DNA of 64,000 nucleotides from Chryseobacterium soli (GTDB taxonomy: Bacteria; Bacteroidota; Bacteroidia; Flavobacteriales; Weeksellaceae), in contig NZ_JPRH01000005.1 in assembly GCF_000737705.1 (NCBI RefSeq), positions 1-64,000 of the forward strand, written 5' to 3'. The position numbers and the translations under genes were made by a program. The notes under the pieces were generated by a model, which saw only the letters and a list, made by a program, of their open reading frames with translations, was not told the DNA's origin and did no database searches. This document shows, in pieces, positions 32,041 to 41,056 of this stretch; within the stretch, counting starts at the first letter, position 1, and each line of letters opens with the position of its first letter.

Positions 32041-32514
32041 TTAAGGTTTTGGCAGGGTTACTCCTAATTCATAAACACTAGCGTGCTTCAAATATTTTGA
32101 ACGCTCTCTGGAAGTTACCGACTCTAAATGATCATTTTTAATCACAATAATCGGATCTTCCATATTTTCAATCTCAAAATTGGCGAAATATCTTTCTTCA
32201 GGGCTTGTTTTATCGTTGCTGGCCTTTATTTTCTGGAGTTCATCTGCATATTTTTTAAATCCGGGGTCAGATGAATGGATAAATTTATATTCATCACCGG
32301 CATCTACATAAAAATGGAGTTTTTTTTCAATTAATCCTGCTTCATTTGTTAGCTGAGGGTTATCATTTCCATCTTTAAAAGCTACTTCTACAAGATCTCC
32401 TCCTTTACTTTGCGCGCATGCTTCGGCATCTTTAAAACTTGAAAAACCAGTATACACAATTTTGTTCGTCAAAACGTATCGGTTAAGTTTTTGGTTATAT
32501 GCATTCGTTTCCAT
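32041..32514 (-). CDS. Hypothetical protein
   Basis: I do not recognise this 157-residue protein. It has no signal peptide or membrane segment. The sequence mixes short strands (YVLTNKIVYTGF, KLHFYVDAGDEYKFI) with a helical acidic middle (YADELQKIKASNDKT) and a basic stretch (SRERSKYLKHAS). Composition and codon use resemble the neighbours. The DUF6496 gene follows after 10 bp, so the two are probably co-transcribed; related pairs might belong to the general stress response, but nothing in the sequence shows that. Confidence 0.7.
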   Translation of the reverse strand: METNAYNQKLNRYVLTNKIVYTGFSSFKDAEACAQSKGGDLVEVAFKDGNDNPQLTNEAGLIEKKLHFYVDAGDEYKFIHSSDPGFKKYADELQKIKASNDKTSPEERYFANFEIENMEDPIIVIKNDHLESVTSRERSKYLKHASVYELGVTLPKP

Positions 32515-32649
32515 AATTATTACTATTAAATTGATTATACTTTATATATTCAATTTTATTGCCAAATGCATACAAATAATATTATAATTTCATTTAGTAA
32601 GCTGTTTTTTTATTATTTTAGTCTTTGTAATCAAAACATTATAATAACT

Positions 32650-32826
32650 ATGAAAAATCTAAAGAAAATTTCAAGAGAACAACTTAAAGATGTAGTGGGA
32701 GGAATTCTTCCTGGCATGATCAGATGCATCAGCCCGATTTCCTGTACCAGAACTGTAGGATATATTGGAGGTCTTGACAACCCATGCGGAATCACAACTT
32801 ATCCAATATGCCGCCTTGAAGAGTAA
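32650..32826 (+). CDS. Double-glycine leader peptide, four-cysteine core (bacteriocin/RiPP-like)
   Basis: The 58-residue product starts MKNLKKISREQLKDVVGG, a leader of the type common in Chryseobacterium small secreted peptides: a helical basic leader ending in Gly-Gly, the cleavage site of C39-peptidase ABC exporters. The core of about 40 residues holds four Cys (in RCIS, SCTR, PCG and ICR) and several Gly and Pro, suitable for two disulfides or thioether-type modification. The ATG at 32650 is chosen because the leader starts there; a longer frame from 32566 encodes unrelated hydrophobic residues. No maturation enzyme, exporter or immunity gene lies beside it. A strong terminator follows directly, so it is a single-gene transcript. 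Confidence 0.8.
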   Translation: MKNLKKISREQLKDVVGGILPGMIRCISPISCTRTVGYIGGLDNPCGITTYPICRLEE

Positions 32827-32849
32827 TTTCTCTTTGATATATTGCATAG

Positions 32850-32867
32850 ACAGGGCTTTTGCCCTGT
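32850..32867 (+). terminator. Terminator of the double-glycine peptide gene
   Basis: A perfect 7-bp GC-rich stem (acagggc / gccctgt) with a TTTT loop is followed by six T residues, 23 bp past the peptide stop codon. Confidence 0.9.
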
Positions 32868-32903
32868 TTTTTAGTTTTATATGGCTATCTTGATAAGAAT
32901 TAT

Positions 32904-32911
32904 TAAATTTG
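32904..32911 (+). promoter_or_regulatory. -7 promoter element of the S9 peptidase gene
   Basis: This reads TAAATTTG, a perfect TAnnTTTG, 19 bp before the ATG at 32931. A TTG lies only 11 bp upstream of it, too close for a standard -33. Confidence 0.55.
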
Positions 32912-32930
32912 AAATCGATTAAAATTAGAA

Positions 32931-35060
32931 ATGAAAAAAATCCTTTTAACTCTTACTGTTGCGGTGGCATTTCAAAATATGTCTGCACAGGAAATCACTT
33001 TAGATAAAATATACTCCGGATACTACCGTGGAAAAGGCATTGCCGGAATAACTTCCATGAAAAACGGGGAAAATTATCTGGTTATTGAACCTACAGGAAT
33101 TGCCAAGTATTCATATAAAACTTCCCAGAAAGAAGGAAATATCGTTGACGGACAATATGAAAGCTATGAATTTTCTGATGATGAATCAAAAATATTATTG
33201 TTAACGGGAAGCCAGCCGATCTACAGACATTCTTTCTTAGGGAAATTTGAAGTTAAAGATTTAAAAACAGGAAAAACCATCAGCATTAATAACGGAAAAC
33301 CTATTCAGGAGCCAAGATTTTCACCTGATGCTTCCAAGATTGCTTTTATAGTAGATAATAATTTATTTTATCAGGATCTTACTTCAGAGAAAATCACACA
33401 GATTACTGAACATGGCGTTAAAAATAAAATCCTTAACGGATTGGCAGACTGGGTGTATGAAGAGGAATTCGGACACGCCAGACTGTATGACTGGACTAAA
33501 AATTCCGATGCGATAGTTTTCGTAAAATCTGATGAAAGTGAAGTTCCGGAAATTTATATTCCTATTTATGGAAAGACGCTGTATCCATCTGAAATGCGTT
33601 ATAAATATCCAAAAGCAGGAGAAAAAAACTCGGTGGTTTCTGCCCACATCTATCAATTGGATGGAGCTAAAAAAACAAAAATCAATTTAGACGATTATAA
33701 AAATTATTATATTCCTAATGTGATCCAGACGGCAAAACCTGATGAGATCATATTAATAACTTCTGAAAGAACGCAAAATGCTTCCGATGTTTTGAAAGTG
33801 AATACAAAAACAGGAGCCGTTCAGAAATTATTTACCGAAACAGACGAAAAATGGATTGATACAGACAGTCCTACTTTAGAATTTTTGGAGGACGATTCTT
33901 TCCTTTGGGGATCTGAAAGAGATGGAAACCGTCACTTATACTGGTATGACAAAGACGGTAAGCTGAAAAAACAGGTGACTAAAGGAAACTGGGAAGTAAC
34001 TGATTATTACGGATACAATCCAAAATCTAAGGAAATCTACGTTCAGACCACAGAAAAAGGAAGCATCAATAAAGTCGTTTCCAAGATCAATATCGAAAAT
34101 GGAAAGTCACAGCTGATTTCCAATACGGACGGAAATAATTCTGCCAACTTCAGCAAAAACTATAATTATTTCATTGAAACATCTTCTACAGCCTCAAAAC
34201 CGTACATGTATGTCTTAAAAGACGGAAATGGCAAGACGTTAAAAGAACTTCAGAACAATAATGACCAGCTTCAAAAGCTAAAATCAGATAATTTTGCTGA
34301 AAAGGAATTCATCACCATTCCGAATGCAGTAGGAGATCAGATGAATGCCTGGATCATAAAACCTAAAAACTTCGATAAAAACAAAAAATATCCATTGTTT
34401 ATGTTCCAGTATTCGGGTCCAGGTTCTCAGCAGGTTTCAAATTCTTGGGACAATGCAAACGCAATTTGGTTCGAAATGTTGGCACAAAAAGGATATATCA
34501 TTGCTTGTGTTGATGGACGCGGAACTGGTTACAAAGGCGCTAAATTCAAAAAGGTAACGTACATGAATTTAGGAAAATACGAAATCGAAGACCAGATTAC
34601 GGCTGCAAAATGGTTTGGAAACCAGTCTTATATCGACAAAACAAGAATCGGAATGTTTGGATGGAGTTTCGGAGGGTATATGACAAGTTTAGCCATGACC
34701 AAAGGCGCTGATGTATTTAAAGCCGGAATTGCGGTAGCACCAGTAACCAACTGGAGATATTATGATTCTGTTTACACGGAAAGATTCCTAAGAACACCAC
34801 AGGAAAACCCTGATGGATACGATAAAAATTCCCCTACGGAATATGCAAATCTGTTAAAAGGTAACTTCTTACTGATTCACGGAACAGCTGATGATAATGT
34901 ACACTTCCAAAATTCCATGGAATTTTCTGAAGCATTGATTCAAAATAAAAAACAGTTTGAGTTTATGGCCTATCCGGATAAAAACCACGGAATTTATGGC
35001 GGACAGACAAGACCGCAACTGTATCAGAAAATGACAGATTTCATTCTTAAGAATTTATAA
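32931..35060 (+). CDS. Dipeptidyl-peptidase IV-type S9 serine peptidase
   Basis: The 709-residue secreted enzyme has a signal peptide (ends NMSAQ), an N-terminal eight-bladed propeller of the DPPIV_N type (including DWVYEEEFG, the Glu pair that binds the substrate amino terminus in DPP4) and a C-terminal alpha/beta hydrolase. The catalytic triad is Ser579 (GWSFGGY), Asp654 (GTADDNVH) and His686 (DKNHGIY). It should remove X-Pro or X-Ala dipeptides from peptides in the periplasm or outside. It stands directly upstream of three POT peptide transporter genes, which would take up the products (inference). Confidence 0.95.
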   Translation: MKKILLTLTVAVAFQNMSAQEITLDKIYSGYYRGKGIAGITSMKNGENYLVIEPTGIAKYSYKTSQKEGNIVDGQYESYEFSDDESKILLLTGSQPIYRHSFLGKFEVKDLKTGKTISINNGKPIQEPRFSPDASKIAFIVDNNLFYQDLTSEKITQITEHGVKNKILNGLADWVYEEEFGHARLYDWTKNSDAIVFVKSDESEVPEIYIPIYGKTLYPSEMRYKYPKAGEKNSVVSAHIYQLDGAKKTKINLDDYKNYYIPNVIQTAKPDEIILITSERTQNASDVLKVNTKTGAVQKLFTETDEKWIDTDSPTLEFLEDDSFLWGSERDGNRHLYWYDKDGKLKKQVTKGNWEVTDYYGYNPKSKEIYVQTTEKGSINKVVSKINIENGKSQLISNTDGNNSANFSKNYNYFIETSSTASKPYMYVLKDGNGKTLKELQNNNDQLQKLKSDNFAEKEFITIPNAVGDQMNAWIIKPKNFDKNKKYPLFMFQYSGPGSQQVSNSWDNANAIWFEMLAQKGYIIACVDGRGTGYKGAKFKKVTYMNLGKYEIEDQITAAKWFGNQSYIDKTRIGMFGWSFGGYMTSLAMTKGADVFKAGIAVAPVTNWRYYDSVYTERFLRTPQENPDGYDKNSPTEYANLLKGNFLLIHGTADDNVHFQNSMEFSEALIQNKKQFEFMAYPDKNHGIYGGQTRPQLYQKMTDFILKNL

Positions 35061-35083
35061 TCTGTATTGTAACAATGTAAAAA

Positions 35084-35112
35084 AATCCTTTCAAATTGTA
35101 ATTGAAAGGATT
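35084..35112 (+). terminator. Terminator of the S9 peptidase gene
   Basis: A stem of about 10 bp (atcctttcaa / ttgaaaggat) with a short A/T-rich loop is followed by seven T residues. Confidence 0.88.
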
Positions 35113-35177
35113 TTTTTATTTATTTCATTAATCGTTTTCTAAAGTATTATTTATTTTATCAATTAAAATTAAAAACT

Positions 35178-35185
35178 TATTTTTG
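35178..35185 (+). promoter_or_regulatory. -7 promoter element of the first POT transporter gene
   Basis: This reads TATTTTTG, a perfect TAnnTTTG, 21 bp before the ATG at 35207. It covers an in-frame TTG at 35183, which therefore cannot be the start codon. Confidence 0.6.
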
Positions 35186-35206
35186 GGAAATTTGAAATTT
35201 GAAACT

Positions 35207-36862
35207 ATGAAGACTAAACATCCTAAAGGCCTGCCCTTTCTCTTTTTCACTGAAATGTGGGAACGTTTCGGGTATTATTTGATTCTCGGAATTTTTGTTC
35301 TGTACGTTATCGAACCGACCGGTGTAAAGGGTGGTTTAGGACTTCCCGACAAAACTGCCGATGATATCTTCGGAACTTATATTGCTCTGACGTATCTGAC
35401 GCCTTTTATCGGAGGATTTTTAGCAGACAGAGTATTAGGATACATCAAATCTATTTATTTAGGCGGAATTCTAATGGCCGCAGGATATATTGGAATGGGT
35501 GTTTTCAAAGAGCTGCCTTTGTTTTATGGATCTTTAGCATTAATCATCATTGGAAACGGTTTCTTTAAACCTACTATTTCTACCTTATTAGGAAATCTAT
35601 ATTCTGAAGAACCTTATAAGGCTAATAAAGACTCTGGATATAATATTTTCTATATGGGAATTAATATCGGAGCATTTATCTGTAATATTATCGCCGCCTT
35701 CATGCGAAATAAGTTCGGCTGGGGTGAAGCATTCATTACCGCTGGTGTCGGGATGCTGATCGGGATGGTTATTTTTACCATCGGAAGAAAGCATTACATC
35801 CATGCTGCACAGATGAAACCTGTACAGGAAGGAGATACAAAGCTTTCTGAAATCATGATGAAAGTTTTTGTTCCGGCTATTGGTTTTGGAGTTATAGGCT
35901 GGTTTATTCCGAATAATATCTTCGGAAGCGACAGCACGGATGCATTCATTTTTGCCTGTATTCCTGTAATTTACTTTTATGCTTCCCTATACTTTAAAGC
36001 AAAACCTGAAGAGAAAGCCTCTATTGGCGCCCTCTTATCTGTATTTATGATCAGTATGTTTTTCTGGGCAGTTTTCAAACAAAACGGAACGGCTTTAACG
36101 AGATGGGCGAATTATTATACCGACCGAAGTGTCCCTGCATCATTAGAAAAACCTTTGGAAGACATTTATATGGTGGAAGGAAAAAGCTACAAAGACAAAG
36201 AAGTTCCGGTGTATAATGAGCAGTATCAATCTCAAAAGGATAAAGATGGAAAACCCGTTAAAGAAATAGGAAAAGACATTTACTTTAAAAACATTTCCCC
36301 TGAACAGCGGGCTGCATTAGAACAAAACCCTGAAAAACAGGTTTTTCTCTACAATACTGAACTTTTTCAGTCGATCAACCCATTCTGGGTGATTGCTTTA
36401 ACTCCTGTAGTGGTTGGTTTCTGGGCATTGCTGAGGAGAAAAGGGAAAGAACCATTAACGCCTACAAAAATTGTCCTTGGATTATTTATTTCTGCACTTT
36501 CCTGTCTGGTCATGGTATTTGCTGTGATGGCAGGTGAAAATGGAGCGGTTAAAGTTTCGGCCTTATGGCTGGTGGCAGGGTATGGAGCGATCACAGTCGG
36601 AGAACTTTGCCTTTCCCCGATGGGATTATCTTTCGTTTCTAAATTGTCTCCTGCAAGGATCACAGCACTGATGATGGGAGGATTCTTCCTTGCCAACTCA
36701 GTAGGAAACAAGCTTTCCGGAATTCTGGCAAGCACCTGGTACAATTACGACAACAAAATGAATTATTTTCTGGTGAACTTTGCTTTACTCATATTCGCCA
36801 CATTATTAGGACTTTCCATGTTAAAAAGATTAAATAAAATCATGAAAGAAAAAGGACATTAA
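35207..36862 (+). CDS. POT-family proton-coupled peptide transporter (1 of 3)
   Basis: This 551-residue MFS protein carries the POT signatures: ExxER motif (TEMWERFGYY), GGFLADRVLG after the second helix, FYMGINIGAF and GELCLSPMGLS. It should import di- and tripeptides with protons. A polar insert of about 70 residues sits between two membrane helices in the middle (EDIYMVEGKSYKDKEVP onward), absent from the two neighbouring paralogues and probably periplasmic. I start at ATG 35207 (MKTKHPKG), just after the -7 element. A terminator follows, so it is transcribed separately from the second paralogue. Confidence 0.93.
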   Translation: MKTKHPKGLPFLFFTEMWERFGYYLILGIFVLYVIEPTGVKGGLGLPDKTADDIFGTYIALTYLTPFIGGFLADRVLGYIKSIYLGGILMAAGYIGMGVFKELPLFYGSLALIIIGNGFFKPTISTLLGNLYSEEPYKANKDSGYNIFYMGINIGAFICNIIAAFMRNKFGWGEAFITAGVGMLIGMVIFTIGRKHYIHAAQMKPVQEGDTKLSEIMMKVFVPAIGFGVIGWFIPNNIFGSDSTDAFIFACIPVIYFYASLYFKAKPEEKASIGALLSVFMISMFFWAVFKQNGTALTRWANYYTDRSVPASLEKPLEDIYMVEGKSYKDKEVPVYNEQYQSQKDKDGKPVKEIGKDIYFKNISPEQRAALEQNPEKQVFLYNTELFQSINPFWVIALTPVVVGFWALLRRKGKEPLTPTKIVLGLFISALSCLVMVFAVMAGENGAVKVSALWLVAGYGAITVGELCLSPMGLSFVSKLSPARITALMMGGFFLANSVGNKLSGILASTWYNYDNKMNYFLVNFALLIFATLLGLSMLKRLNKIMKEKGH

Positions 36863-36887
36863 TCTCCTGTTTTTCATACATATTATA

Positions 36888-36912
36888 AAGCCGTAGTACT
36901 ATTCTACGGCTT
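36888..36912 (+). terminator. Terminator of POT gene 1
   Basis: A 9-bp stem (aagccgtag / ctacggctt) with a 7-nt loop is followed by a T run. Confidence 0.88.
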
Positions 36913-36938
36913 TTTTGTTTAATTATAAAATTAAAACC

Positions 36939-36968
36939 TTGCCAAAAACTCAAAAAAAACTATATTTG
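36939..36968 (+). promoter_or_regulatory. Consensus promoter of POT gene 2
   Basis: TTG at 36939-36941, then a 19-nt spacer and TATATTTG at 36961-36968: both elements of the Bacteroidota promoter at normal spacing, 28 bp before the ATG at 36997. Confidence 0.85.
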
Positions 36969-36996
36969 TCAGTCTTAACAAAAATTAACAATAGAA

Positions 36997-38751
36997 ATGG
37001 ATAATATTGAAGCATTAAGTCCGAAACCGGATGAATTTGTAGAGAATAAGGGTTCCAGACATCCAAAGGGATTATGGGTTCTTTTCGGAACAGAAATGTG
37101 GGAGCGTTTCAACTTTTACGGGATGAGAGCGCTTTTGACGCTTTTCATGGTAAATTCCCTATTAATAAAAGAAGCGGATGCGGCAATCATTTATGGTGGA
37201 TTTTTAGCTTTATGTTATCTTACCCCTCTTTTGGGTGGTTTTATTGCTGATAAATATATCGGAAATAGAAATGCTATCCTTATTGGAGGTTCATTAATGG
37301 CAATTGGTCAGTTTTTATTATTCATCAGTGCCTCAAGTTTTTCCGCAGATTTAGGAAGTGCGAAAACCATTATGTGGTTGGCATTGTTCGTTATTATTTT
37401 TGGTAACGGGTTCTTCAAACCAAACATTTCCTCAATGGTAGGAAGTCTTTATCCTAAACAGGAAAAATCTAAACTAGACTCAGCGTTCACGATTTTCTAC
37501 ATGGGAATCAACATTGGAGCGTTCCTGGGACAGTTCATTTGTCCTTATGTAGGAGACGTAAAAGATGCCACAACGGGAGTAAGAGATATTTTTGCTTTTA
37601 AATGGGGATTCTTAGCTGCTTCAATTGCCATGGTAGTTGGAACAATAACATTCTTTATCCTTAAAAACAAGTATGTAGTAACGCCGGAAGGAAGACCTAT
37701 CGGTGGATTACCGAAAAATAATACAAGTGCAGATTTTGAAGAAGGAGAAACTCAGACCGCAAAATTTACTGGAGTATCATTAGGAATTACTGGAGGTATT
37801 TTCGTTGTTTTATTCTTCGTTTTCAGATACTTACTTGTTGGTGAATTTGGGTTTAAAGCTGTGGAAATGGGGCAATTAATCAAAGGAATTATTTATCCTT
37901 TCATTTATGCTGCAGGTATTTCTTTGGCATTCTTAATTATGAGTTCTGCTGAAAACAAGATAGAAAGACAAAGAATTTGGGTAATTTATATTGTATCATT
38001 CTTCATTATTTTCTTCTGGGCAGCTTTCGAGCAGGCAGGATCTTCATTAACATTTATCGCAGATAACCAAACAGACAGAAGTATTTTCGGATGGAATATG
38101 CCACCGTCAATGGTGCAGATTTTCAACGGTATTTTCGTTGTATTATTGGCAGTTCCTTTCAGTTTATGTTGGGATAAATTAAGAGCCAAAGGAAAAGAGC
38201 CGGTTTCTCCAATGAAACAGGCAATGGGATTAGCTTTAATTGCTTTAAGTTATTTCATTATCGCGCATAACGTAAAAGATCTTGGAAATTCAGGATTATT
38301 AGCGATCAAATGGTTAATGCTTTTATATTTCATCCAAACTTGTGGTGAACTTTGTTTATCTCCAATCGGTTTATCTTTGGTAGGTAAATTAGCTCCAAAA
38401 AGATTCGCATCTTTATTATATGGTGTATTCTTTATTTCTAATGCTGCCGGTTATGCATTGGCTGGTTCATTAGGAGCATTGATTCCTGCAACTGGTGATA
38501 AATTCTCTAAAGCACAGGAAATCGGAGTAAACCTTCAAGATGTTTTAGATAAAAAAGTGACATTAAATGCTGATCAGGTTGCAGCATTTGAAAAAGCTCA
38601 ACTACCTTTAGCAAATCCAACTTTTGCAGGAGTTGAAATCCACAACTTATTCGAATTCTTTATGGTATTCGTTGTATTGTGTGGTATTGCAGCTGTAATT
38701 TTAGCTTTAATTTCACCAATCTTAAAGAAAATGATGAACGGTGTAAATTAA
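36997..38751 (+). CDS. POT-family proton-coupled peptide transporter (2 of 3)
   Basis: The 584-residue protein has the POT motifs TEMWERFNFYGMRALL, GGFIADKYIGNRNAI, FYMGINIGAFLGQF and GELCLSPIGLS, with about 14 membrane helices. A soluble insert of about 50 residues, rich in Lys, Asp and Ala (LQDVLDKKVTLNADQVA), lies before the last helix. Its codon use is visibly more AT-poor-in-third-position biased than the neighbours, with strongly repeated TTA and GGA codons, which suggests high expression. It has its own consensus promoter and terminator. Confidence 0.93.
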   Translation: MDNIEALSPKPDEFVENKGSRHPKGLWVLFGTEMWERFNFYGMRALLTLFMVNSLLIKEADAAIIYGGFLALCYLTPLLGGFIADKYIGNRNAILIGGSLMAIGQFLLFISASSFSADLGSAKTIMWLALFVIIFGNGFFKPNISSMVGSLYPKQEKSKLDSAFTIFYMGINIGAFLGQFICPYVGDVKDATTGVRDIFAFKWGFLAASIAMVVGTITFFILKNKYVVTPEGRPIGGLPKNNTSADFEEGETQTAKFTGVSLGITGGIFVVLFFVFRYLLVGEFGFKAVEMGQLIKGIIYPFIYAAGISLAFLIMSSAENKIERQRIWVIYIVSFFIIFFWAAFEQAGSSLTFIADNQTDRSIFGWNMPPSMVQIFNGIFVVLLAVPFSLCWDKLRAKGKEPVSPMKQAMGLALIALSYFIIAHNVKDLGNSGLLAIKWLMLLYFIQTCGELCLSPIGLSLVGKLAPKRFASLLYGVFFISNAAGYALAGSLGALIPATGDKFSKAQEIGVNLQDVLDKKVTLNADQVAAFEKAQLPLANPTFAGVEIHNLFEFFMVFVVLCGIAAVILALISPILKKMMNGVN

Positions 38752-38773
38752 CCGTATCAATAAAATATAAGTA

Positions 38774-38797
38774 AAACCTCTGCTAAGTCAGAGGTTT
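38774..38797 (+). terminator. Terminator of POT gene 2
   Basis: A 9-bp stem (aaacctctg / cagaggttt) with a 6-nt loop is followed by a T run. Confidence 0.9.
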
Positions 38798-38813
38798 TTT
38801 TTATTTTCGTACG

Positions 38814-39526
38814 ATGGAAATCTCCGAAGATTCTTTATATCAATCCGTAAAGGAAATCGTTACGCAATCGCGCGAAAAAGTTTTTCGCATGGCGAATTCC
38901 ACACTTTTGCTTACGTACTGGCAAATCGGGCAACTTATTGTTGAAGATGAACAGAAAGGAAATGAACGGGGAACTTATGAATCCTATACACTGAAGAATC
39001 TCTCAAAAAAATTAACTTTAGAGTTTGGAAAAGATTTTGATGAAAGTAATCTAAGAAATATGCGTTCTTTTTATCAGGCATTCCCAATATGTGACGCATT
39101 GCGTCACGAATTGAGCTGGACTCATTACAGGCTATTGATAAAGATGAATAATTCAGATAAAGTGAATTATTACATCAATGAATCTATTCAAAACAGCTGG
39201 AACTACAGAGATCTGAAAAGACAAATTAATTCTCTTGTATTTAAAAACCGGGGAACTTTCTCATCAGGATATCGGTCAAATTGATATGTATGTAAGAATG
39301 GTATGATGACATGAAAAGAAATGAAGGCGATAATCCAACCATAGGCATTTTACTCTGCTCAGAAAAAGATGAAACTATCGTAAAGTACTCTATTCTTAAC
39401 GACAAAAATAACCTTTTTGCAAGTAAATATTTGTTGTACCTTCCGAAAGAAGAAGAATTAAAGCAAATCATTGATCAGGACAGAATCCGTTTCGAACTTG
39501 ATCAGGAAAATAATCACTCAAACTAA
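38814..39526 (+). pseudogene. Decayed DUF1016 (YhcG-type) nuclease gene
   Basis: The first 142 codons encode an intact DUF1016 N-terminal domain (TLLLTYWQIGQLIVEDEQ, ESNLRNMRSFYQAFP, LSWTHYRLLIK, NWNYRDLKRQINSL-like end). At about 39238-39243 the frame jumps into sequence coding for LKTGELSHQDIGQIDMYVRM in another frame, which belongs to the far end of the PD-(D/E)xK catalytic domain. About 120-130 codons of the nuclease core are thus deleted. A second lesion, one extra base near 39301, shifts the frame again before YDDMKRNEGDNPTIGILLC and the normal C terminus to 39526. YhcG-family proteins act with restriction or recombination systems. The remnant sits between POT genes 2 and 3. Confidence 0.9.
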
Positions 39527-39544
39527 AATAATTATAAAGCAATT

Positions 39545-41056
39545 ATGAGCTTAACTTTAGATGAAATACAAAATTTCAAAGGAAAATATCCAAAACAAAT
39601 ATGGAGCTTATTTTTCTCTGAAATGTGGGAACGCTTTTGTTTCTACGGAATGCGAGGAATGCTGGTTTTCTTTATGATCTCCCAGCTTAATTTCCACGAA
39701 AAGGAAGCCAATCTTCAATATGGTGCCACCCAGGCATTTGTGTATGCCTTCACTTTTATAGGCGGCCTTTTTGCCGATAAAATTCTAGGTTTCCGAAAGT
39801 CTCTGTTCTGGGGCGGACTCTTAATGATAGTTGGAAGTTTAATTCTAGCAACCGATCCGCATAAGTTCTTCTTCCTGGGAATTGCATTCACAGTAGTAGG
39901 TACAGGTTTTTTCAAACCCAATATTTCTTCTATGGTCGGTCAGCTTTATAAGCCTAATGATTCAAGAGCTGATGCAGGTTTCTCACTTTTCTACGCAGGA
40001 ATCAACCTTGGAGCTTTGCTTGGAGGATATTTATGTATTGCAATAGGTAAAGGAGAACTTTTTGCCAGTTTTATTCCAGAAGAGTTAAGATGGCATCTTG
40101 CTTTTGGATTTGCTGCAATTGTAATGGTAATAAGCTTAATTAATTTCGTTTTTACGCAAAAAAGTTTAGGAACAATCGGTCTTCAGCCGGGACATCCCAA
40201 TAATGAAATAAAATCAGCTCCTATCGCAAAATGGCAGGAATACGGGGTATATGTTTTATCACTAATCTTCGTTCCGATTATTATGATCATGGTTGCAAAG
40301 ACCCAGTATACAGACTATTTTATGTATACCATCGGGCCATTAACTCTGATCTATCTGTTCTATGAAATGACAAAAGTGACGGCTGCAGAACGTAAAAAAT
40401 TGTGGGCAGCACTTGTATTCATTTTATTCTCTATCCTGTTCTGGGGAATTTATGAGCAAAGTGGTGGTTCATTAAGTATTTTCGCCGCTAAAAATTTAAA
40501 TAAAGACCTTCTTGGATTAGATCCGAACGGAGTTAATAATTCAGGAGGTGCATTTTTCATTATTTTCTTAGCACCTATTATCGGCCTGCTCTGGATTTGG
40601 CTGAATAAAAGAAAGATAGAGCCTAATACCATCATTAAATTCGGTCTCGGATTTATCTTCCTTGGACTTGGGTATTATGTTTTATTTGCTACTAAATTCT
40701 TTGCTAATTTACAGGGGATCACCTCATTGAACTTTTTCACGATTGCTTTATTAGTAATTACCCTGGGTGAGCTTTGTCTCTCCCCTATCGGATTGTCAAT
40801 TATGACCAAACTTTCCACCAAAAATCTTCAGGGAATGATGATGGGAATGTGGTTCCTTGCTTCGGCATATGGCCAGTATGTGGCGGGAATTATCGGAGCA
40901 GGTCTTGCCACTGCAAAAAAAGGAGCTACCAATTATGATGTTTTAATCACTTATACTGATGGATATAAACAATTAGGATTATATGCCGTTATTGCCGGTG
41001 TGGTACTAATTTTGATCTCTCCATTTGTAAAAAAATTAATGCAGGATGTAAAATAG
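39545..41056 (+). CDS. POT-family proton-coupled peptide transporter (3 of 3)
   Basis: The 503-residue protein has the POT motifs FSEMWERFCFYGMRGML, GGLFADKILGFRKSL, FYAGINLGALLGGY and GELCLSPIGLS and about 14 membrane helices. It lacks the soluble inserts of its two neighbours, so it is the most compact of the three. It begins 18 bp after the end of the DUF1016 remnant with no evident promoter of its own between them; transcription may start inside or before the remnant. The thioredoxin gene follows after 39 bp without a terminator, so the two may be co-transcribed. Confidence 0.93.
   Translation: MSLTLDEIQNFKGKYPKQIWSLFFSEMWERFCFYGMRGMLVFFMISQLNFHEKEANLQYGATQAFVYAFTFIGGLFADKILGFRKSLFWGGLLMIVGSLILATDPHKFFFLGIAFTVVGTGFFKPNISSMVGQLYKPNDSRADAGFSLFYAGINLGALLGGYLCIAIGKGELFASFIPEELRWHLAFGFAAIVMVISLINFVFTQKSLGTIGLQPGHPNNEIKSAPIAKWQEYGVYVLSLIFVPIIMIMVAKTQYTDYFMYTIGPLTLIYLFYEMTKVTAAERKKLWAALVFILFSILFWGIYEQSGGSLSIFAAKNLNKDLLGLDPNGVNNSGGAFFIIFLAPIIGLLWIWLNKRKIEPNTIIKFGLGFIFLGLGYYVLFATKFFANLQGITSLNFFTIALLVITLGELCLSPIGLSIMTKLSTKNLQGMMMGMWFLASAYGQYVAGIIGAGLATAKKGATNYDVLITYTDGYKQLGLYAVIAGVVLILISPFVKKLMQDVK

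Follow-up and report, generated by a model that had tools for sequence, protein, structure and literature searches.

A 58-aa frame of Chryseobacterium soli probably encodes a bacteroidetocin-like (class II) secreted disulfide peptide, one of many that would depend on a common hub for oxidation and export. The frame lies on contig C5, in the 64,000-nucleotide stretch analysed here (the window), and runs on the forward strand from an ATG at 32650 to a stop codon at 32824-32826, giving a leader of 18 aa and a core of 40 aa (Table 1). In the mechanism that we propose, a single ABC exporter whose gene lies on another contig would read the leader with its C39 domain, cut after Gly-Gly and, together with an HlyD-type adaptor and an outer-membrane channel, export the core. 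On its way out the core would be oxidised to two disulfides by a VKOR-DsbA fusion, the gene of which neighbours that of the exporter, and the Cys-free, C39-like N-terminal region of this fusion may bind the leader. One hub would serve about 49 dispersed peptide genes, and the product would act outside the cell on competing related bacteria. These steps draw on homology, Cys parity and co-occurrence; on that footing we consider cleavage, export and disulfide formation very likely, and the use of the hub on contig C6 in particular nearly as likely. The sequences themselves display the gene, its leader family, the conserved Cys and their parity, the hub genes and their co-occurrence.

An earlier note on this DNA had described a double-glycine leader and a four-Cys core at 32650-32826, and both were recovered. 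The NCBIfam model NF047798 (leader_Chryseo, "bacteriocin-like protein") matched residues 1-18 at 36.8 bits against a cut-off of 23.5, which places the peptide in a known and already curated leader family. This model spans the 18-aa leader alone and is silent on the core, the oxidase, Cys parity and the exporter; its name was not found in searches of the open-access literature. In the ortholog alignment the model also matched every one of the 16 members at E 0.01. Within the leader, Ile(-12), Gln(-8) and Leu(-7) come close to the pattern for C39 recognition, Leu(-12)-X3-Glu(-8)-Leu(-7), given in the excerpts of PMC6363468. The features of a C39 exporter substrate, namely Gly-Gly, hydrophobic residues at -12 (Ile) and -7 (Leu) and an exporter of the C39 type encoded in the genome (a single C39 domain over cut-off), were all found. 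A longer ATG frame from 32566 is present, and the start at 32650 was preferred because it corresponds to the start seen in the leader model and in the 27 intact orthologs. The four Cys of the core (residues 26, 32, 46 and 54) presumably make two disulfides, with the pairing left unassigned. No Pfam family matched the peptide up to E 1, and the CCPGW family of putative bacteriocins (NF047792) reached 25.9 bits where at least 80 are needed over the whole protein, which leaves the peptide outside that family. AlphaFold gave a pLDDT of 44 with the single sequence and 69 with a 16-row alignment, with core block means of 72-82 (moderate confidence); Foldseek matched no solved fold (best E 4), and therefore no fold is claimed.

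Table 1. Features of the peptide gene and its slot (positions in the window)
Feature	Position	Strand	Basis
Leader peptide, 18 aa, Gly-Gly at residues 17-18, ending DVVGG	32650..32703	+	NF047798 leader_Chryseo, 36.8 bits
Predicted mature core, 40 aa, four Cys, C-x5-C-x13-C-x7-C	32704..32823	+	Cys invariant in 28/28; purifying selection
Leu-Pro-Gly-Met at core start	32707..32718	+	Pro-Gly-Met invariant in 28 sequences
Stretch from first to last Cys codon (codons from 32725, 32743, 32785 and 32809)	32725..32811	+	Invariance; genome-wide Cys parity
Hairpin like an intrinsic terminator, with T-tract	32848..32869	+	One match; similar hairpins in 25/28 sequences
Slot between the 157-aa gene and the S9 peptidase gene, 416 bp	32515..32930	.	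Slot comparison

The suggestion that the gene has its own terminator also held up. In the terminator scan the hairpin at 32848-32869 was the single match against a shuffle mean of 1.3, and therefore alone is no proof of a terminator. Across the window and the 27 orthologs, an unbroken hairpin with a T-rich tail was located 3' of the gene in 25 of 28 sequences, with varying stem letters; the other three sequences scanned (L045, L047 and L066) had none by this rule. A sigma-70 scan remained at chance level (12 sites found, 10.2 expected), its best site lying upstream of the gene at 32559-32588.

We searched 173 genomes of the genus with the peptide and obtained 74 places in 63 genomes, C. soli included, while 110 genomes had no match at E 1e-5; the gene is patchy across the genus. 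Besides the window there were 73 places, of which 49 were read (29 as given loci, 20 fetched) and 24 were left unread. Among the 49 places read were 27 intact four-Cys orthologs, so that with the window 28 of the 173 genomes are known to carry one; the nearest named loci belong to C. polytrichastri (95% identical) and C. sp. ERMR1:04 (88%). The homologues read were all short leader peptides, and the conserved non-secreted function that the earlier note had allowed for was not seen among them. Met1-Lys2-Asn3, Leu12, Gly17-Gly18, Pro21-Gly22-Met23 and the Cys at 26, 32, 46 and 54 were invariant in the 28 sequences. In the closest ortholog pair the core had a pS of 0.43 against a pN of 0.043, and the median core dN/dS was 0.26 over the 87 of 378 pairs that were usable (pS 0.05 to 0.6). 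These results indicate a real gene whose core is under purifying selection, and we let this selection stand proxy for the expression that the earlier note had named as a test. Decayed copies in relatives might suggest a decaying or unexpressed frame, which is scarcely credible here since the copy in the window is intact and its 12 synonymous core differences from the closest ortholog stand against 4 nonsynonymous ones, with 3 against 0 in the leader. A sister group with six Cys has the same first four Cys and two more (L068, L070, L088, L090-L098 and L100; L068, L070 and L091 are examples). Its members carry Gly-Met-Val-Arg-Cys near the core start, and the S9 and 157-aa genes were absent in both sister loci checked (L068 and L070).

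The slot that holds the gene lies between a 157-aa gene on the minus strand (32041-32514) and an S9 peptidase gene with DPPIV_N and Peptidase_S9 domains (32931-35060). The S9 gene adjoins 26 of the 27 orthologs, the exception being L061, close to the end of its contig; the 157-aa gene lies about 2.9 kb away in L043 (G103). A link of the peptide to either neighbour was considered and rejected: the 157-aa gene is present in 171 of 173 genus genomes and the S9 gene in 28 of 28 genomes asked, and since both occur without the peptide they are unlikely partners. Among 20 peptide-less slots that were fetched, the S9 gene was adjacent in 17, with gaps of 122-125 bp (13 slots) or 184-242 bp (4 slots), and was not found at the slot in the other 3. 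A stretch retained in the four longer gaps resembles the right arm of the terminator of the peptide gene, together with the bases that follow this arm; read by eye, it may be a scar of loss. Decayed copies occupy the slot in three genomes: G058, which was read, and G100 and G070, where decay was judged from listed stops and the position beside the 157-aa gene. Taken together, the slots mark the peptide gene as a unit of one gene that can be dispensed with. A housekeeping role, as a secreted peptide that binds metal or sits at the surface, would suit the purifying selection on the orthologs and the ability of four Cys to bind metal; it is very improbable given intact orthologs in 28 of 173 genus genomes (24 of 73 other places unread), the three decayed slot copies and the 110 genomes with no match. 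As the earlier note had observed, no immunity gene was recognised among the neighbours.

Two further features of the neighbourhood were recorded. The S9 peptidase gene is followed by three genes, at 35183, 36997 and 39545, which we take to be POT-type oligopeptide transporters, and the stretch 32931-41056 is perhaps a module for peptide use. The short frames 38814-39284 and 39311-39526 look like the start and end of one gene with the middle missing, presumably of a YhcG/DUF1016-type nuclease.

To search for further leaders, as the earlier note had proposed, we ran NF047798 against the C. soli genome and found 49 places at E <=1, of which 31 were over the cut-off (one of them together with its neighbours). 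The earlier statement that such genomes carry several small Gly-Gly peptides was right in that many exist, and "several" was too low. Among 14 control genomes, 2 had a leader match at E 1 and none was over the cut-off; single weak places may therefore be due to chance. For the count of Cys, the place at C3:95111-95143 (no Gly-Gly, one Cys) was dropped, C1:305358 from a separate search was added and a duplicate row was removed, which again gave 49 peptides. Their cores contained four Cys in 16 cases, five in 1, six in 29 and eight in 3. An even number was thus present in 48 of 49 cores, compared with a mean of 24.5 and a maximum of 38 in 20,000 shuffles of residues among the cores, and in 30 of the 31 peptides over the leader cut-off. 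Because the leader model is blind to the core, the search did not select for parity. Similarly, 58 of 60 leader peptides in the exporter loci of 20 other genomes had even Cys numbers (loci picked for holding the VKOR fusion; peptides found with our own leader profile at >12 bits; not independent, with at least one pair identical in two genomes), as did 60 of 62 named loci over the frame read, many of them close relatives and the odd ones being L143, which is decayed, and L154. Related sequences are contained in the parity samples, as they are in the co-occurrence samples below. Disulfides are the simplest reading of the paired Cys, and the four-Cys pattern of the peptide fits into a parity rule that spans the genome and is linked to an oxidase. 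With its even Cys number (four) and with leader and fusion in the same genome, the peptide falls within the grouping that we propose, that of a disulfide peptide served by a VKOR hub. The sole odd core, with five Cys (G000:C1:624423-624476), might dimerise or be decaying. Another member, a 94-aa leader peptide at G000:C4:173065, has a long Gly-Gly-rich repeat before a four-Cys tail.

The genome search for C39 ABC transporters, also proposed earlier, revealed one C39 peptidase domain over the cut-off, at C6:36190-36555, so the case of a genome with no exporter did not arise. This domain belongs to a 730-aa ABC exporter with ABC membrane and ATPase domains, and the start of the exporter retains the Cys of the QPDAKDCGPTCL stretch, presumably the catalytic residue. 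Adjoining the exporter gene are genes for an HlyD-type adaptor and a 502-aa VKOR/Thioredoxin_4 protein, and two further leader peptides lie one on each side of it. No C39 or VKOR-fusion gene was found in the window; contig C6 carries both the genome's sole C39 domain over cut-off and its sole fusion. The results agree with the earlier view that export and modification machinery is missing nearby and that this C39-type leader would rely on machinery elsewhere in the genome. The fusion contains six Cys only, at 175/187 (VKOR loop region), CxxC 254/257 and CxxC 366/369, which we take to form a full relay of the VKOR-DsbA type. We then compared 20 loci picked for holding a VKOR fusion, with 10.5-13 kb fetched for each: an exporter match was present in 18, within 3 kb of the fusion in 15 of these, and at least one leader peptide was present in 18 (all but L201 and L209).

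In C. soli, grasp-with-spasm enzymes are encoded upstream of the VKOR and C39 genes (L087:3265-5440, on G000 contig C6; TIGR04193 over its cut-off, TIGR04192 below its own), and a small ORF beside them has a different type of leader with no NCBIfam leader match. The position of these genes, about 2.3-4.5 kb upstream of the VKOR gene, raises the reading that the peptide is a modified (RiPP) precursor, for example of these very enzymes. This is quite improbable: no GRASP/SPASM match was obtained at E 1e-15 in 10 of the 18 exporter loci with leader peptides (within the stretch fetched), the small ORF beside the enzymes has that different leader type, and Cys parity points to disulfides.

The N-terminal region of the fusion (110 residues) had no Cys in 11 of 11 members. 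In 8 of these 11 it matched PF03412 at E <=1 (best E 2.9e-6; the C. soli member E 0.018, below the gathering score), and the claim of C39 likeness is kept solely on these Pfam matches; a profile-against-profile comparison with the C39 domain of the exporter was weak (6.6%). This region may be a C39 domain that has lost its catalytic residue. We tentatively put forward, as a serious possibility, that the leader serves as a passport with two readers, the exporter's active C39 domain and the catalytically dead C39-like domain fused to VKOR-DsbA, in a hub-and-spoke arrangement in which one machine oxidises and exports about 50 different, scattered cores.

Co-occurrence was assessed in 296 genomes of the family, 149 from the genus and 147 from other genera (leaders at E <=1e-3, fusion at E <=1e-20; a leader count of 29 for a genome in this sample stands for at least 29). 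Within the genus, 137 genomes had leaders and 139 had the fusion, which was present in 137 of 137 leader-positive genomes and absent in 10 of 12 leader-negative ones (Fisher p 6e-14, the genomes being related). Of the two exceptions, G030 had no more than a remote fusion match (E 1.6e-33); the other, G089, carries the complete hub, and a looser search gave two likely leader peptides there, of six and four Cys (E 0.008 and 0.09); in this looser leader search (E <=5) 8 of 14 control genomes matched too. In other genera, 12 genomes had both, 4 had leaders only, 6 had the fusion only and 125 had neither (Fisher p 2e-10, again among related genomes); the fusion was thus found in 12 of 16 leader-positive against 6 of 131 leader-negative genomes. 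C39 domains were present in 146 of 149 genus genomes and 52 of 147 from other genera, including 9 of 12 and 37 of 131 leader-negative genomes, respectively (Fisher p of leader against C39 4e-4 and 4e-7 among these related genomes). Presence of the leaders is matched more closely by the VKOR fusion than by the more widespread C39 across the 296 genomes.

In a tree of the S9 protein from 28 genomes, those lacking both leaders and fusion were scattered among those with both (G037 by G038; G060 by G001; G036, G018 and G105 around G106). This is one gene tree of hand-picked genomes, the 12 leader-negative ones chosen first, with support of 0.22-0.95 at these nodes, some of which are weak. Since double-negatives stand beside double-positives several times, joint gain or loss of leaders and fusion seems to have happened more than once. 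G106 itself looks like a half-way state or relic hub (L240; G106:C1:411967-414202), with a six-Cys leader peptide about 1 kb before a shortened VKOR fusion; the fusion matched over residues 2-378 only, and no other leader was over the cut-off in that genome.

We compared the system with described ones, for which the cited sources are represented by excerpts throughout. Bacteroidetocins (class IIf) have a Gly-Gly leader of 15-16 aa, a mature peptide of 42-48 aa with mostly four Cys, a C39-type exporter and a thiol oxidoreductase (PMC6671954). The Gly-Gly leader, four Cys, C39-type exporter and thiol oxidoreductase recur here, as known from sequence, and the likeness rests on this logic and not on core sequence. 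The sizes differ (leader 18 aa, core 40 aa, with four Cys), as does the arrangement: each bacteroidetocin lies in a locus with a transmembrane protein, an exporter and mostly an oxidoreductase (PMC6671954), whereas here about 49 genes are dispersed around one apparent hub, and exporter and fusion lie on another contig and not in one region with the peptide. Prochlorosins (30 substrates in Prochlorococcus MIT9313) and the lah cluster with LahT-type exporters (nine) likewise have one maturation and export set for many leader-sharing substrates (PMC6363468); those are lanthipeptides, whereas the peptides studied here have no linked modifying enzyme and are predicted to carry disulfides. A PDB sequence search up to E 1 gave carnobacteriocin B2 as its sole match (E 0.47, residues 1-39). 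Class IIa bacteriocins such as this one have the Gly-Gly leader in common with the peptide, which has no YGNGV box and so stands outside the class, and whose exporter is Gram-negative with an HlyD adaptor. In the excerpts of a graspetide survey, Chryseobacterium appears for chryseoviridin, another kind of peptide (PMC8939145). No description of the repertoire, the parity rule or the fusion-leader link was found in searches of the open-access literature, outside which most subscription journals lie. The Cys parity, the co-occurrence of fusion and leader and the shared hub with dispersed genes appear to be new, and the system would be a variant of the bacteroidetocin kind.

As for the role of the product, bacteroidetocins kill Bacteroidales (PMC6671954, excerpts) and target BamA (PMC8546649, excerpts). 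According to the excerpts, a bacteroidetocin producer can itself be inhibited (cited in PMC10352776), and therefore an immunity gene is not a must. Bacteroidetocin A had no effect on the one Flavobacteriales species tested, and bacteroidetocin C, with an odd Cys number, had modest activity (both in the excerpts of PMC6671954). Bacteroidetocins synthesised with no disulfide step were active (same excerpts), and therefore disulfides need not be required for activity. A role as a secreted signal (pheromone or inducing factor), with oxidation and export by the same hub, would be in keeping with the use of Gly-Gly leaders by signals too (PMC6363468, excerpts), with a match to the EntF induction factor model that is weak (13.3 bits against a cut-off of 35) and with a single gene that has its own terminator and no recognised immunity gene. 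We regard a signal as unlikely, since 49 different cores in one genome and patchiness between species better fit diversified effectors, and since both neighbours occur without the peptide and neither looks like a dedicated receptor or regulator. Antagonism is slightly favoured over signalling because of the patchy presence, decay and diversification of the peptides, with the killing of competitors as the likely effect.

These results turn a vague "bacteriocin-like" label into a testable system of one exporter, one oxidase and 49 predicted masses. If the proposed system is true, Chryseobacterium and some related genera would possess large and still unexplored collections of disulfide peptides, and reading the leader for an oxidase would be the task of a dead protease domain. 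If the hub-and-spoke arrangement holds as well, the spokes would be gained, lost and diversified singly, giving each species its own arsenal.
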